From: Megaustenia siamemsis | Taxonomy: Eukaryota > Mollusca > Gastropoda > Stylommatophora > Ariophantidae | Direction: 5' to 3' | NCBI GenBank assembly: GCA_032433765.1 | Contig: JAVIAB010000160.1 | Span: 37,781,723-37,845,722 of the forward strand | Length of the DNA stretch: 64,000 nt | Shown: one piece after another, positions 6,270 to 18,200 of the stretch | How the letters are laid out: every line of letters begins with the position of its first letter | How positions within the stretch are numbered: the stretch's first letter is position 1 | The notes under the pieces: generated by a model | Seen by the model: the letters and a program-made list of their open reading frames with translations, nothing else | Databases searched by the model: none | What the model was told of the DNA's origin: nothing | Program-made: the position numbers and the translations under genes

Positions 6270-9200
6270 GTAAATAGCTTCGTTTTTTTATATTTGAAAA
6301 GGTTTCTCAGTAATTTACCGTTTACGAGTTACTAACTAACTGTGTGAGTGAGTCTACCGTAACCGTGCCGTGCTGTAGTGTAACTGTAAGTACCAGTTAC
6401 AGTTACCGGTTTCTAATTCTTTATACTTTATAATATTGCTTACTACTTATAAATTCAATCAATTTAAATCCCAGTTAACTGAACTAACTCTGCTCTAACT
6501 CTAAGAATTGTCAACAATTTCGTGACTGATTTACTGATTAAAATGCCTCAAACTACAACTGAAAATCAGTGAAAAAAGTTGTAGTTTGACAGTTTGAGGC
6601 ATTTTCAATTTTCATTTTTCATTTTAAAATTTAGATGGTTAACATCATAAATATTATTATTCAAACTTACTGCATTTTGAAATCATTTTCATTATTAAAA
6701 TTATTAGTTTCATTTCATCAGAATCAGTCATTCCACTTCATTCTCATTCTGTGATTTCTTTGACCAATGACTTCACTGACTTACTTTTTTTTACTACCAA
6801 ACGCGGCATACTGTGGCGTTAACAGTATTAACAGCTGTGTTAACGTCAATTTATTAACGCTTAATAAGTCCTTTAATATTTAATAAATAACTGACTGAAC
6901 TGGAGAGTGAAGTGTAGTCTGTTGTTAGTTAAAAGTTAGGGTAATTTCCTAGTTTGATCAGATATATTATTTCAGTTGGAAGAGTGATGTCCCCTAAAAT
7001 ATGTCTGCCAAAATACAGTGGTTCTACGCATTCTTGGCGTTGGGGTCATTACGCTGGCATGTAATCATTTCGGAGTATCTGTTGATTGGGCGTTGGGTCC
7101 AGGGGTTAGGTTTAGCTTTAGTGTTAAATATTTATAAATATATTATAACGCGTGATGTCCCCTAAAATATGTCTGCCAAAATACAGTGGTTCTACGCATT
7201 CTTGGCGTTGTTGGGGTCATTACGAAGTAAGTGAACTCAGAACTGCTTAGCTGGTTTTTAAATATTAGACAAACTAGCCTATATATATAGGCGGATAATT
7301 AGTAAGAAGAAGCATAAGAAAGGATAGGGGTTCAGCCAATTATTAATTAACATCTCGATTTGGACGCAGACGCTGACCCGAACGCCACGCTGACCCAAAC
7401 GCCAGTGTGAGTGACACATGCCAGCGTAATGACCCCAACGCCAAGAATGCGTAGAACCACTGTATTTTGGCAGACATATTTTAGGGGACATCACTCTTCC
7501 AAACTGAAATAATATATCTGATCAAACTAGGAAATTACCAAAGTTAGAGCAACTTGTTATTGTAACAAGTTTGTTACATTAGTAAACATTTCCAAAAGAA
7601 AATAATAATAATAATAATAAAACACTAACAGCCCTAAATGATAAGATAAATGATTACATTTAAATGAAGAATACGGAGGTAAACAATAATATCACAATCA
7701 CATCCTCATTCTTGTCAGTTGTCTCTGTATGTCAAATTGAAATATTAAATTTTAAAAAGTTATGTATGCAATTTTAATTTTAACCAACTGACAAAATTAA
7801 GACTTCTGTTCTCAGGATTTCTAACTTCTCTATATTTTAACAATTTTGCACATCAACAGGCTATGTCATCACTTCAAATCTATCAGTTTAGGTGCTAAAA
7901 TAATAATCTAGATCATCATTGTGGCTCCAGGTCACATGTTTTGGCCCTAAAGCAATGACACATACTTAACTCTTTCCGTACGTTCCGCTGCATGATGGTG
8001 CGCCATATCCATTTCAGTTGTGTACATTCAGCTGCATAGTGCACCATGCTCAATTTGATAAGTGTGAACGCCATCAAACTATACTCTTTCTAAATGTCTT
8101 GTATCATCGTGATATTGGTGAAATCTAATACCTTGTTGAATTATCTAAAAATTCATATATAATATGTTATATGTTAGATAAATATAAATATGTAGATTGG
8201 TTCTTAAAACCATGAACAATTTTGTCTTTGAAATCTCTTCTGTTGCGTCGATAAAAAGCTTCCGTATGGAAAGAATTAACCAAGGGGAAAAATGGTGTGG
8301 TCAATTAATTGTCAATAACTTCATGACCCAACTACAAATCACTTTGAAATTTCACAAATTTTATTTAAGTTGAAATAGTTACGGAATCTAAAAATAGTTT
8401 TTTTTAAATTGTACTATTTATTTTTATTGACAATTAATTGAAAATCAACAGTAGACACAAAAATTGTCAGAAGAAACCATGTGTTTCAGATCAATTTTCA
8501 TTTATGTTCTCGCTGTAATATCAATTTTTTTTTTTTTAAATTTGTGACAGTCAACCCTGCCATAGAGCGTGTTAAACCCCATGTTAGGGAATGTGTTAAA
8601 TAAACATAATTTCTCTATTTACTAATTCAATTATTCATATTTTAATCAAGTCTGTTTTATTTGATTAATATTGAATGCTACAAAAGTATAGTTAATTATT
8701 TTGCTTGTTTCTATTATAAATACTAAGGTTGTTTTAATATCAATTTAATGCAATGCTATTTCAGTTGCTGTCTAGCTGTTCAACTAGCAAAAGTCAGAGA
8801 GTCTGTCCTTATCATTTCAACTGATCCAGCTCACAACATCTCAGATGCCTTTAGTCAGAAGTTTTCTAAAGTTCCATCATTGGTCAAAGGGTTTGACAAC
8901 TTATTTGCAATGGTAAAAATATCTGAGTATCAAATTATGACATCTAGTTCTAGCACCTAAGTTTCTTTCATCACTGAAGGCCAAGATGCCTCAAAGCACC
9001 ACAGCTGAAGTTGCCAGTGAATCTTAATTTACTATATGTGCCACAGTCAATGAACAAAAACCATTCAGACCCTAATCTACCTCTTCGCTGTGCCACTAGT
9101 AACAGACCAATCAAGTGAGCCATCTGACCAAATAAGTAGGGATTGAGAGGAAAGGCAACCCGATCCTCAAAAATGCTATGCTGGAGTTGGATGTGTTGGA

Positions 9201-12200
9201 CTGAAATGTGCAAATATTACAGTTCTACTGCAAACCACAACACAACTCATACAACCCTCTTAGTGTCCTCTTAGGGCGGATGATGGAGAGGTGTTTTCAT
9301 TTAGTCATTGAATGAGTGCAAGTAAGCTTTCTTCATTTCCTTATGTTCATCTGACAACAACGTACGCTGCAGAAATCGGCATGGTGCACAGTGCGGTGAA
9401 ACATACGGAAAGAGTTAAGTGGGTGTAGATATCTTGTCTTGTGATTTGCACTGAGGCTGTGATATTTGCACCTTTTAGTCCAACATATTCAACTTCAGCA
9501 TAGCATTTTTGAGTATGGATTGCCTTCCTTCTTCAATCTGTATTCACTTGACCAGACTGATGGTTAGTCTGTTTCCAGGAGCACCACTTGATGGTGGAGT
9601 AGGGTCTTGATCAGCTTTGTTGTTCATTGACTCTGGCACAAGCAGTCAGCTGTGGCTCACAGACTCAGCGCCCTGGTCCCCATCTATGAAGAGTGTGCGT
9701 GCACCGTCATCTGTTGGAAGGCCCAACAAACAGGCACTACTTCCATTTAATGTTGTAGCTACTGTATTGAGTGATCTACATCAGTGTTTCTCAAACTGAA
9801 CACAAGATCTCCTGTTTTTCATATTATCCAAGAGGGCTAGACATTGATTCTCTCATGCAGATTTCAAAGGAGGGTATAAGCTTCCTGTATTTTTATCAAA
9901 GAGATTAAAATGCTAATTTTTTATGTCAAAGTTATTTTGTCTTGTAGATTAGAAGGAGAAGACATATGATATTCATAAAAAAAATATTTTAATGTTAGCA
10001 GAATTAAAGAAATTATGGGAGCACGGACACACAAAACATAAACTTGAAAGTACCCTACCATTTCTTGTCAAACAAAAATTAGACCACTATGACAAACAGG
10101 AAATCGTAGACTTAGAAGTCACACAAGGCTTGGCATCAATATGACATTTCAGCACATTGTGGCAAAAGCCCAAAATTGTTTAACAAATTATACTTTATAA
10201 AAAGACAAAATTAAAAAAGAAAGATGGGCCCCAGAGAAGACATTGCTTTCATCTTTTTTTAGCAGCACTCTAAGAAGCACTAAGTGAACTAAACAGTTAG
10301 TGGAAACTCTTAGTTTCTGAAAATGAGTGATGTCTGATAACAGCTTCTTCTTTAACAATGAAAATGCATTTGTGGACAATGGACAGATTTTGTAGCCTAC
10401 CAGGTTCTACTGCTTTGTTGGTCCAAGACCAAGGTGAAACACTAAGGAAATAATAAACCGTATAAATGTGTATTCAGATTCACATCTCATAGATTTTAAT
10501 ATTGTTTATCTTGATTTTCATATCATCATTTGAATGATTCATCAATCCATGATTTTGTTTACTCATAAATGACCTCTTTATTGTGTCCTAGTTTACACAA
10601 GAACTATACTTTTTTTTATAACACCTTTTGGCTCAAAACTCATCTTTATTAATGTATTATTTTTTTAACTTGGGTTAAATTTTTTAGTCAGACTGAATAA
10701 CTTGATTTTGGGATCACTTATGTGGAAGCTGCATATGATGATAAAAAAAAAATAGTAAAGTACCCCCGTCACGCCAAGTGGCATATAAGGAATATGGTGT
10801 TCATCATCATCATCATTGAGTGCCGTCTCCGCAACGAAGGTTGGCTACCATGGAGCGCCATTTTGCTCTATCTCTTGCTTTGATGGTGCAGGTTGTCATC
10901 GGTTGGTTTGTCCATCTTTTGATGTTACTCGTCCATGTTAATCTTGGTCTGCCTCTGCCTCTTTTACCTTGTATTTTCCCCTCCAGGATCACTTTCAGTA
11001 GGCTGTTGTGTCTTTTAACATGGCCTAAGAATCGCATTTGTCTTGTTCTAATTGTGTTCAGAAGTTCTCTTTTCATTTTTAGTTGTTTTAAGACTTTGTC
11101 GTTTGTTTTCTTTTCCTTCCATCCAATTCTACCTATTCTTCTATATATCCACATTTCAAAGGCTTCAATTCTCTGTTCTGTTTTCTTGTCTAATGTCCAT
11201 GTTTCAGCACCATATAGGAATATTGAGAAGATGTAACATTTTGCTATTCTTAGTTTTAGCTCTGGTGTTATTTGTTTTGATGTTAGTATGTCCTTCATGA
11301 CATTAAAATTACTTTTTGCCATTCCTATTCTTTTGTTTATTTCAGTTGTACATTTTCCATCACTGGTTATAGTATGTCCAAGGTAGTTATAGTTCTGAAC
11401 TGTCTCAAGGTCTATTCCTTCAATTTTGATATTCACTTGTGGGTTTTGAGTATTTTCTTTGTTTATGATCATAGTTTTAGTCTTTTTGATATTCATATCT
11501 AGTCCATATTTTTTGCTTGTCGTGTTTATTTCATTAAGTAACTGTTGTAGGTCTTTAGGATTTTCTGCTAGTAGTACAGTATCGTCAGCATATCAGGTTA
11601 TTGATTATCTTTCCATTAATTTGTAGGCCTGGCATCTCTATGATGTTTTTAAAGATTTGCTCAGTGTATAAATTGAACAAGCTTGGTGATAGGATGCATC
11701 CTTGTCTTACTCCTCTTTTTATATCAATGGGTGTAGAGAATTCTTTGTTATATTTTATTATTGCTGTTTGCTCCCAGTATAGATTGCATATTAGTCGTAT
11801 ATCCATGTCATCTAGATGTATCTCTTTTAGGCATTCTATAAGTTGTTTGTGGTGTACTCTATCAAAAGCTTTGGTGTAGTCTATGAAGCAGGCATATATT
11901 GGTTTGTTTACTTCTGTGTATTTTTCGATTAATGTTCTCATGCAGAATATGGCTTCTTTTGTCCCGCTATTTTTCCTAAATCCAAATTGCTGCTCATCTA
12001 ATTCAGTATTGATTTTATTCTGAATCCTTCCTTGTATAACTTTTAGCAAGATTTTTTGTAACATGGCTCATTAGGCTTATTGTTCTAAAGTCACTGCATT
12101 CAACTGCACCATTCTTTTTAGGCAATGCAATGAAAGTTGATGTTTTTAGTTCATTTGGTATGTATCCTGTGTGGTATATGTCGTTGCATATGTCTGTAAT

Positions 12201-15200
12201 CACTTCAATGCCAAAATCTTCAAGTGCCTGTATCATCTCTATCTGTATGCTTTCAGGTCCTGCTGCTTTTCCTCTTTTCATTGTTTTTATAGCTTTTTCC
12301 ACCTCAGATTTTAAGATTTTATAGCCTGATGTACATTTTATAACTGGTTTCTTGTCCCTTTGATCATGAAATAGTTCTGTTATATATTCCTGCCATCTAT
12401 CTATGATATCCTTATTGTCTGTTAGCATTTTTCCTTTTTTGTCTGCAATGCATCCACCTTCTGTGGCTTTTTTATTTTTATTAGTCATTCTTTTTATTTC
12501 TGTGTGCATTCCTCTTAGGTCTTGTTTGCTTTCCATATTTTCTATTTCTATACATTTTTGGCTGAGCCAGTCTTCTTTTGCCTTTTTGCACATTTTGCGT
12601 ATCTCATTATCTATTTTATTGTATTGGGCAGTGTTCTTCGCTTGTCTCCTTTCTTCCATTTTTTCTAAGATGGTGTTAGTTATCCATTTTTGTTTTTTGT
12701 TCTTTTCTCTTTTGGGTAAGGTGTCGCAGGCTTTTTGTATGCTTTTCTTTATGCATTGCCATTTGGTTGTTACTTTTTCATCAGGATTTTCTCTTCTGTA
12801 TTGTTCAATTCCTTCCTCTAGCAGCTTCTGGTATGTGTTCTTTACTTGTATTGTATAGGTATCTTTAATATCTTTTTGATTTAAAGCTGTTATGTCGAGT
12901 GGGTTTGTTGATGAATTAGATTTTTGCTTGTTTCTCTTTAGTTTGATTTTCATTTTAATCATTACAGGATTGTGATCAGAATTAATATCTGCTCCTGGGT
13001 AGGTTTTGGCTTTCTTTACGCTGTTACGGAACCTTTCTTTTATCATTATGTAATCTATTTGATTCCTCTTCCTATCTCCAGGGCTTTTCCATGTGTATAG
13101 TTTCCTTTTCTCTTGCTCAAAGTAGGTGTTACATATTATCAGCCTGTTTTCTTCACAGAATTGTATTAATCTTTCTCCTCTGTCATTTCTTTTTCCTAAA
13201 CCATGATTTCCTATAATTGTCTTATATCTACCTTTTCCTACTTTAGCGTTCATGTCACCCATTACAATCAAGATGTCTGAAGATTTCACTTGCTTCATAA
13301 CTTTATTTAGGTCTTCATAGTATGCCTCTATTTGTTCATCTGTGTAGTCTTGAGTAGGTGCATATGTCTGTATTATTGCTATGTCGAATGGTTTTGCTTT
13401 CAACTTGAGTAGTATAATCCTATCACTGTATGTCCAGTGGGTACTTATATATTTTTGTAGCTCTCTTTTTATCAGTATTCCTACCCCTCTTTGATGTTCT
13501 GTTGTGTTTCCTGAGTATATAAATGTATATTTTTCGTCTTCAATGTACCCACATTCTTTCCATCTAGTTTCTGATATGCCTAAAATATCTATATTTATTC
13601 GTTCTGCTTCTTGAATTAGATTTTCCAATTTCCCTTGTTGATATAGAGTCCTAACATTCCAAGTACTTATTTTAAGATCTTTCCTCCGACATAAGTTCGA
13701 ATTTCTCCGACTCTCCATGGCTTCCTCTGGATTGGTACGTGATGAGGCTCCAATCTCTTTCACGGTGGTCAGCCATGTTCGTCTTTCGTGTTCTGAACAT
13801 GCCTCTTGTGTACCACACACTTTGCTGTTTTCGCTTTCTGGGCCGTTGATCATTCTTGATTCCTCCGCCTCCATCCACCGTCACAGACTTTTCACATAAG
13901 GGTAAACATTTTTAAAAACTGCAGAAAAGATATAGGTTGGTTACAGGCAACAGACCAGGGTCAATATGGTGTTAGTGACCATAAATTTTACAGACTTTCA
14001 GCACATGATTTTTGGGGTAATGTGGTCAGTATTACTGCCGTGCCGCTTTACTTTCCCAGAAAAAATCCAGTACCCATTTAAGGCTGGGTGAACCAGGAAG
14101 TCGTCGGTTGGGATTGAACCCTACCTCTTGTCCTTTGTAGTCCAGTTCACTAACCACTGAGCTATCGCGGCTCCCTATATGATAATAGTCTGCTCTATTT
14201 TGCTGACTTTGATATCAACAGTCAACTATGAGTCATTGACAGCAGCTATAAACTCATGTGCTGCACATCTCAGCTCGTCTGAGGAGTGATGGATGAACAA
14301 TGGTAAAGAAGAACACTTAAAATACATTATGAGTCTGCCAGGTAATTAAATTAAAAGAGATCTCAGGTTGCTTTTACACATAGAGAAAGATTAAGCAAGG
14401 AAATAACAATTGTGTTTCTTATTCTAGGAAATAGATCCAAACCTTGGCTTTTCAGAACTACCAGATGAGTACTATGAGCAAGGTATGTTGTTTCTGTTTT
14501 GTATATTTTATTATTTTTGTTTAGATTATGGTGTGGAAGGATGTTTGTGGAGATTATTTTATTTATAATTTTGAGTCAGTAGATAAAATTTGTTGGGATG
14601 TGACGACACACTCACCGCATGTGAGAGTTCAGTGCTAATTACCTGGTCTGTTGCCTGTAACCAACCTATATCTTTTCTGCAGTTTTTAAAAATGTTAATT
14701 ATTTTCACAGTTGGTTTGGATGGCATTAAAAATGCTCTTTATAAGAATAGGGAGCTGTAATAGCTCAGTGGTTAGTGAACTGGACTACAAAGGACAAGAG
14801 GTCAGGTTCAATCCTAATTGACGGCTTCTTGGTTTGCCCAGTCATAAATGGGCACCAGATTTTTTATGAGAAAGTAAATCACGGGTGTAATACTGACCAC
14901 ATTACCCCAAAAATCATGTGCCGAAGGTCCGTGAAAAATTATGGTCACTAACACCATTATTCCCTATATGCCACTTGGTGTGACGAGGCTCTTAACTGTT
15001 TTCTTACTTCATAGGAATAATTGGTTATGTCTACAACTATGGAGGTACAGTTCATTTTCAAGAATAGTTTTAGGCAGTTTGACTTAAGTTTGCTTTTTAT
15101 CAGATGAATTTAGTAGTGTCACTTGCTCGTGTTCACCCGATCTCTAAAGGAATAGTTAGACCTCTTCATCATCCGCCCTTAAAAGGGTATTAATTGGGCA

Positions 15201-18200
15201 TGGATGCCTTGTAAGGAGGTTTTGTCATAAAGTAAGGGAAGGATCCCTTACCTCTATTATGGCGTTAGTGACCATATTTTTCCATGACTACAGCACATTT
15301 TTGAGCAGTGTGGTCAGTATCATGACAAGCTGCCTTTACATCCCAGAAAACCACTGGCGCCCATTAATACAGGTTGGGTAAATTCCAGAGCCTCATAGTT
15401 TTTTAAAAAAATCTGCCACTTCTGGCAATTGAATTCTGACCAGGTAGTAAACGCACTAACCACTTAGTTGGCAAGGCTCTTTTATGAACTGATTTTTTTA
15501 AACACATTATACTGTTTTTATTTCAAGTTAGCTTGAGGCTTCTCCTCTGACTTAATTTTAATCTTTGCAGCTGACATGATGGCCATGGGTCGAGGTATGG
15601 TTCAAGAGCTTCTTGGAGCTTTTCCTGGCATTGATGAAGCCATGAGTTTTGCTGAAGTGATGCGGTTAGTCCCTCATCTGTTTCCATGTAACTATTCTGC
15701 AAACTCTTAAAGAAATCCATATGTTCACTCTTATAGGGAGAGCATAGTTTAGAGATAAGTAGCATATTCTATGATTGGGAGAAGTATGTGAACAACAATT
15801 TATTGGAGAGGTGAGTCTAAAACATTTTATATTAAAAAGATATTATGATATCAATCTCAAGATATTAGGGGGAGATGATTAATACCAGTCAAATGTAGTC
15901 ACAAAATTTGGTGAAAATGTTACTTTTTTATTTATTTATTTTTTTTTTTTTTGCCTCTTTTTTTCAGGTTAGTGAAAAACATGAACTTTTCAGTGGTTGT
16001 ATTTGACACAGCTCCAACAGGTCATACACTGCGTCTGCTTTCATTTCCATCTGTGGTTGAGAAAGGGCTAGGAAAACTTATGAGACTAAAGAATCAGATT
16101 AGTCCATTCATTAGTCAGGTATTTAATTATTTTATTTGCTCAGTTTTTAATTGTATGGCTCATTTATTTTACAGTTGTAAACTAGTGGTATTTGTAATTT
16201 ATTCAGTACTTGTTTGTAAAGTGGATTTTTTTTAGTTTATTTTTTTTTTAGTAAAATGACGTAATGTTGTTTATTGTTGTTATGGATCCATCGGCCTTTG
16301 ATCTGATGCCCTCCGGCCCAATGCCATGTAGTAGTATCTGCAGGTATTTTTAAGTTATGCTGTGGACGTAATGTTGTTTATGCAGGTTATTTACTTTATG
16401 TTTTAACAACACAAATTTGTTTCCTTTATGACAGATGGCAGGTTTGATTGGTATGCAAGACCTAAATGCAGATCAAATGTCCAGTAAATTTGAAGAAATG
16501 TTGGCCACCATTCGGCAAGTGAATACTCAGTTTAAAAATGCGGTGAGATTTTATTGAATAATTTATTTGTTGTTGTTGTTATGGATCCAGTGACCTTTGA
16601 GCTGATGCCCTTCGGCCCAATGCCATGTAGTAGTATCTGCAGGTATTTTTAAGTTCTGCTGTTGTTCCGTACAGAGTATTCAATTTGGAGGGTCTTTGGG
16701 GAAATAGTGTTGTTCTGATGTCAGTGAGCTCAGGACATTGAAACAGGTGATGTTCTACAGTTTCTTGTGGGTGATTACAGAGTAGACATACTGGGGTATG
16801 GTTTTGTTGTATTCTATTAATGTGGTTATTCAGCATAACATGTCCTGTTCTCAGTCTGAAGATGGTGGTTTGGTCTCTTCTTGTTAGGTTGTTGATGTTG
16901 TCTTGTGGATTTGGTCTTGCCATATATTTAAAAAGCTCTCTCCCTGTTTTCCCTAAGGCCCATCCATTCAGCCACTCCTCCCTACTGTTGGAGTTTATGA
17001 CTTGTTTGGCTGTGTCTAGTGTGATGGATGTATGTATCTGTGTCTGTTTAGATCCTCTCTTAGCTAATGTATCTGCCTTATCATTTCCTGGTATATTTGA
17101 GTGTCCCGGGATCCATTGCATTACCAATCTTATGTTATGTGTTTCAATAAGTTTGTCTGTGTCAATGATAAGCTGTGTGAGTTCTGTTTTGTTCGTGTTG
17201 TTTTCCAGTGCTTGCAGAGCCGATTTGGAATCCGTAAATATAACTGTGTTTGTTTTCTTTGATGGTGTGGTATCGAAAATCATATTTAAATGATAAATTG
17301 CTGTTTTAATAGCTGTTACTTCTGCTTCATAATTGTTACAGACTTCACCACAAGGTCCACATATTTCTTCTGCTGTTCCATCTGGATAATGTATTAATCT
17401 TCAAAACGCTATTGTTCAGTAACCGTTTGTTAAAAACTGTTGAAATTTTCCAAATGTTATTAGAATGCAAAAGACCCTTTAAATGTATATTTAACAAATA
17501 TCTAGGCGAATTTCTTTGATGTTTGTCAAAATTGTAAATTGTGAACCCCTAAATAATAGAAATTACCGTAGTTGCTGGTCTATGATTAATTTTCACTAGT
17601 TAAAGGCGTGGCCGTAATGGGGAAATACCAGGAGAATTATTGTCTTCTCAGTTCAAGGACGGACGATAATATCAAGGTATACCTGTATGTCCAATTTTCA
17701 TAGTTGTGTGGTCCTGAAAAGGACCGTTTGTTGAACTAATTTAAGGTAATATAGGGGCCAACATTGTGGGGGCTATATACTTTCATTTTGAATCAGATGA
17801 GTCTAAAAGATTAATAACTGTTTGGGGTTGAACATTCCACAAACCATCATTTTTCCAATATTCCTCTTCCTGTTTTAAGACGTGGTCTTCACATTCAGCC
17901 CAATAATCTTTGTCTATGTTTAATAAAGCGAGATTAGCAAGAGTCTTTACATCGCATATTTTGAATGTATTTTCATCTGCCACTTGTCCTTTTAATTTTG
18001 CCCAGATTAGTTCTATTGGATTTAAATGAGCATGGTAAGGTGGCAGCCTCAAACTTATATGACCGTGCTCTTGGATAATCTTATCTATTTGAAAAATCTT
18101 TGTCCTTTGTTTTTGCTTTACTAGAGATAGTAATTCATGTTTTAAGTACATGTTATTAAATTGTATGTGCTCCTTTGTGAGCCAAATCTTAATAGCATCT

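Follow-up and report, generated by a model that had tools for sequence, protein, structure and literature searches.

How is the 5' end of a long interspersed element (LINE) joined to its target, and where do the extra bases at such a joint come from? LINE 5'-end joining is still debated, and a LINE copy in the gastropod Megaustenia siamemsis raises the question at a locus where the source of the extra bases, the filler copied from it, the truncation point of the element, its target-site duplication (TSD) and its target are all resolved. The copy lies in a stretch of 64,000 nucleotides (nt), here called the window (assembly GCA_032433765.1, contig JAVIAB010000160.1, positions 37,781,723 to 37,845,722). 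We consider it highly probable, at roughly 85%, that an RTE-type LINE inserted here and that its 5' end was joined after local templated synthesis of filler, by whichever route.

Filler, source and truncation point

In a self-comparison of the window, 13905-13959 (minus strand) was the exact reverse complement of 14642-14696 (plus strand) at 55 of 55 positions (100%), with 682 nt between the arms, just as a first-pass annotation, made from the sequence alone, had described at about 0.7 kb. The number of 55-nt inverted matches expected in 64 kb from base composition is 5.6e-23, which rules out a chance origin of the match. The filler is located inside a short interspersed element (SINE), between the 5' end of the LINE copy and an 11-bp TSD, AATATGGTGTT, that is present at 13963-13973 on the 5' side of the LINE and at 10791-10801 on its 3' side. 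An assembly error or chance as the explanation of the locus is hardly credible: nothing was found in its favour, the expectation just given speaks against it, and the junction resembles those of other copies of the LINE family in its SINE flanks and its ordinary TSD.

The first-pass annotation had delimited an RTE-like LINE at 10802-13962 with this TSD, and had counted 55 bases of extra sequence. The TSD and the 55-nt filler stood, whereas the 5' limit and the completeness of the count did not. The extra tract comprises 59 nt in total, namely the filler, a single base at 13904 (minus strand; T in LINE sense) at the LINE/filler junction, and three bases at 13960-13962 (minus strand; GTC, or GAC in LINE sense) between filler and TSD. 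Base 13904 matches neither the canonical element nor the source, the canonical ATGTTCA/ACCC being replaced in the window by ATGTT/T/ACCC, and the three bases match neither source nor element.

The element itself occupies 10802-13903 on the minus strand, from 13903 (5') to 10802 (3'), with a 3' tail of GAT repeats. Its body is 99.3-99.5% identical to the full-length copies L017, L025 and L026, of which L025 and L026 have a common 3' flank, so that the three loci perhaps represent only two insertions. The window copy begins at position 258 of the reference copy L026 (3360 nt), and the three full-length copies extend 257 nt further 5', in mutual agreement, up to ATGGCGG. CCGGTGTC directly precedes ATGGCGGC in 15 of the 22 fetched loci in which ATGGCGGC was found (it was not found in 7 of 29). 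Because full-length relatives run on in this way and CCGGTGTC precedes ATGGCGGC in these loci, the window copy is 5'-truncated: 13903 is a truncation point, not the true 5' end, and the copy is short by about 257-267 nt.

Using the LINE 5' region as a query against the 2.59-Gb assembly, 40 of 957 candidates were scored, the window included. The 55-mer was absent from all 39 other scored 5' regions, which align only from query position 67, 72 or 73 onward, and the window alone matched in full. Among 29 fetched loci (L048-L076), 28 continue into the LINE family's own 5' untranslated region (UTR), ending in ...TATGTTCAA(C) or a one-base variant, and L049 is another truncation. A 115-nt query containing the source yielded 2 candidates and 2 matches, the source itself and the filler; the search method skips simple repeats and very common words, which makes the uniqueness of the source strong and not absolute. 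Two results, the absence of the 55-mer from the 39 other scored copies and the two matches of the source query, show the filler to be a copy of unique local DNA. The earlier inference that nearby genomic DNA completed the 5' end thus withstands the refutation that it had named, namely other copies of the LINE family with the same 55 bp.

These results bear directly on the alternative that the 55-mer is part of the element, as an alternative 5' UTR or a 5' transduction, with 14642-14696 representing a LINE fragment or a second insertion. AATTA occurs directly 5' (14637-14641) and directly 3' (14697-14701) of the source, and these direct repeats are its exact bounds, as expected if 14642-14696 had been a short insertion that duplicated 5 bp; identical 5-mers spaced in this way are found at 131 of 63,935 window positions (chance 0.2%) and at 2 of 700 local positions (0.3%). 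Set against this are the 39 scored 5' regions without the 55-mer, the lack of a third genomic match to the source query, and thus of a parent locus in this assembly, and the absence of any Rfam match in 10700-15100 at E up to 1, and we regard the alternative as very improbable. An origin of the filler in an element 5' UTR or a 5' transduction failed on this assembly by the 39 scored copies, the unique source and the 28 loci carrying their own 5' UTR. A small RNA gene as filler template was likewise rejected, given the Rfam result and the lack of a third genomic copy.

The AATTA duplication exactly at the source boundaries would also suit a reversed order of events, in which the filler came first, from a template now missing, and a later staggered AATTA break was filled with an inverted copy of the same 55 nt. 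Both ends of the copied tract would then have to coincide exactly with the filler limits by chance, and there is no third genomic copy to serve as the first template; this order of events is improbable.

The assignment of the element rests on its domains, its protein relatives and its TSD length, which together indicate that it is probably of RTE type. APE endonuclease and reverse transcriptase domains are spread over three overlapping open reading frame (ORF) pieces on the minus strand: 12015-13880 carries the endonuclease (PF03372, PF14529), 11585-12067, in another frame, the first part of the reverse transcriptase (PF00078), and 10813-11592, again in another frame, its last part and the C terminus. 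A search with the LINE protein found 706 relatives, the best at 58% identity, and among the 120 listed were two named Craniofacial development protein 2 [Nymphon striatum], a name that we take to mark RTE-derived proteins. The 11-bp TSD falls within the 10-12 bp at which TSD lengths of RTE elements peak (PMC4245944).

The insertion had been called young on the strength of the 100% identity of filler and source. Over 55 nt, that identity corresponds to a 95% upper bound of about 5% divergence and is weak for dating alone; the identity of the LINE body to the three full-length copies is the better evidence and points to an insertion that is probably recent.

The target is the SINE, which the LINE splits into a 5' part at 13963-14180 and a 3' part at 10741-10801 (both minus strand). 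Seven further stretches of the window, each longer than 160 bp, match the 205-nt 5' part of the SINE, and a second copy at 14747-14988 (plus strand; inverted pairs I1, I3, I4 and I6) is inverted relative to the hit SINE and continuous across the insertion point, thereby representing the empty-site type. Source, filler, TSD and empty-site type are all visible in the window, as the first reading had it. The hit SINE (13963-14180) and the second SINE are inverted repeats of each other, and the loop that they enclose contains the source. Fold-back of SINE onto SINE as a primer was considered and rejected, by reasoning only: such a primer would lead to a copy of the SINE tail instead of 14642-14696.

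Possible routes to the filler

The exact inverted copy, its local and unique source, the truncation and the TSD are observed directly; from them we infer the polymerase and the template strand. We place about even odds on a snap-back route, a synthesis-dependent microhomology joining of the polymerase-theta type. Target-primed reverse transcription would have stopped about 257 nt short of ATGGCGG, and the right flank would have been resected by about 0.7 kb, exposing a strand ending ...CACCATATT-3' at the break. This strand would fold back, prime at ATT within the AATTA beside the source (3-nt homology), and copy 14642 through to 14696 as the inverted filler, after which the copied end would re-anneal to the LINE cDNA end via ATGTT (5-nt homology) and be filled in with small errors. 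Same-strand snap-back accounts both for the inversion of the copy and for its origin on the same side of the break. The homologies at the ends of the copied tract have chances of 0.006 (ATGTT, LINE side) and 0.057 (ATT, target side), jointly 0.00036, values that are subject to the offsets having been picked post hoc, after inspection of the sequence. Extra nucleotides at LINE 5' ends, templated by flanking DNA via annealing, have been reported (PMC4245944, PMC4760211).

Several points weigh against this route. Neither joint has the sequence expected of it, the target joint being ATATT-GAC-CCTGG instead of ATATT-A-CCTGG and the LINE joint ATGTT-T-ACCC instead of ATGTT-CA-ACCC. The filler is long for polymerase theta, whose inserts are generally shorter than 25 bp according to PMC12426944, and the source, at 679-733 nt from the insertion break, requires about 0.73 kb of resection. 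The AATTA repeats that bound the source play no role in the snap-back model and are left unexplained by it. Finally, the other 27 of the 28 LINE family junctions with a TSD, described below, have no reliable extra longer than 17 nt.

A credible rival, to which we give somewhat less than even odds, is that the LINE reverse transcriptase made the filler itself by jumping at the truncation point to a plus-sense template, either flank DNA or a host pre-mRNA. The enzyme would have copied 14696 back to 14642 and added a few untemplated bases before the target was joined. First-strand cDNA corresponds to the plus strand of the window, so the acceptor needs plus sense, which is also the sense of the host gene, and the extra bases at both switches (13904 and 13960-13962) suit untemplated addition. 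Such addition of untemplated bases at jumps is known for R2. A template-jump origin of many ZfL2-2 5' extra nucleotides is stated, as unpublished data, in PMC2666801. On the other side, nothing indicates that an RNA or DNA 3' end existed at 14696, and ATT on the target side together with ATGTT on the element side points to annealing, although a jump could use ATGTT too.

The host gene in this reading is presumed to be a plus-strand GET3/ASNA1-like gene. A search of 8001-17000 with PF02374 (ArsA_ATPase) matched three stretches of the plus strand in one frame (E 2.4e-38 overall), the best being the coding stretch at 15960-16133. A probable exon of the same presumed gene, at 14428-14483 (plus strand), lies between insertion and source; it gives an 18-residue translation between splice-site-like ends, with a weak GET3/ASNA1 match (E 0.021). 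Because this exon separates them and the ArsA_ATPase match continues beyond, the LINE, in antisense orientation, and the source are placed in successive presumed introns. In an unlikely version of the jump, the enzyme would have abandoned the LINE RNA for the nascent pre-mRNA of this gene and taken the 55 nt from that transcript. If this were true, LINE 5' ends could be capped with sequence of local host transcripts, and long fillers in intronic LINEs would be skewed towards the host gene's sense strand.

The annotation had allowed for either template jumping or end joining, and the data do not settle between them, with snap-back at about even odds and the jump below that; one locus alone cannot separate host repair from reverse-transcriptase jumping. 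The locus constrains the models, which must accommodate a template at a distance of up to 733 nt from the break, on the same side of it and used in inverted sense, with short homologies at both ends.

Comparison with other insertions and known systems

We compared the junction with those of other insertions of the LINE family, using 35 distinct LINE 3' ends including that of the window; loci with the same 3' flank were merged (L026 with L025, L023 with L022, and the window with L001). A TSD was called in 28 and not in 7, namely L003, L004 and the first row of L009 (<100 nt upstream) and L006, L025, L034 and L036 (no TSD of 7 nt); L004 lacks a call by the upstream rule, yet its TSD is visible in another comparison of loci. 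At the 28 junctions with a TSD, 14 have no 5' extra bases and ten have 1, 1, 3, 4, 4, 4, 8, 9, 11 and 17 nt. Apparent extras of 50, 52 and 52 nt (L005, L009 and L037) reflect TSD calls misled by repeated flanks or composites, and at least part of the 17-nt extra of L017 is the element's own start. The 59 nt of the window are an outlier in this set. Templates were sought for the extras of 3-17 nt in seven other copies, and the matches found, of 7-9 nt only, are too short to assign.

Flank-derived extra nucleotides at LINE 5' ends have already been published, and the present case stands out by its length, its distance from the source and its full resolution; the filler is long enough to fix a unique origin in a 2.59-Gb genome. 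Inserts of the zebrafish LINE ZfL2-2 in chicken DT40 cells carry flank-derived 5' extra nucleotides, attributed to annealing of LINE and genomic ends (Kajikawa, Yamaguchi and Okada 2012, Gene 505:345, as cited in PMC4760211 and PMC4245944). In both cases, flank-derived bases separate the TSD from the LINE 5' end, and short homologies are present; in the window, such bases are missing from all 39 other scored copies and are identical at 55 of 55 positions to nearby unique DNA. The window insertion differs in that 55 nt were copied in inverted orientation from about 0.7 kb away, in a natural genomic insertion of RTE type.

Insertions templated by polymerase theta (theta-mediated end joining, TMEJ, or synthesis-dependent microhomology-mediated end joining, MMEJ) resemble the present case in their near-break filler and their stray bases that cannot be mapped, and would also do so in their priming by minimal base pairing (PMC12426944). 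They are usually shorter than the window's filler (<25 bp), which in addition arose in a LINE integration that produced an 11-bp TSD and deleted nothing at the target. Template jumping of R2 and L1 (PMC2912911) is similar in that cDNA synthesis at the 5' end passes to a second template, and differs in that the second template in the window would be flank DNA or host pre-mRNA 0.7 kb off, not the target end. The same paper gives extra nucleotides in 14.6% of human 5'-truncated L1 copies.

LINE copies at the same SINE position

At five loci (the window, L002, L004, L007 and L008), the LINE, with different 5' truncations, is found at the same position of the SINE with SINE sequence on both sides, and the TSDs at these loci match, being AACACCATATT or a private variant of it; the query contained SINE flank, which moved such copies up in the ranking. 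The LINE 3' end is followed by AACACCATA within 15 nt at 41 places in the genome, composites and the window included, compared with 0 in a reversed control. L006 (1446-1750, reverse strand of the locus) is a composite retroposon, in which a 14-bp duplication, TACTGATGATATTA, brackets a LINE 3' piece and a SINE 3' tail; L005 looks similar. Such structures suggest that new mobile composites originate from LINE-in-SINE loci. In L009, LINE 3' end and SINE tail are repeated in tandem, and the LINE 3' matches end near 194, 340 and 484 in locus coordinates.

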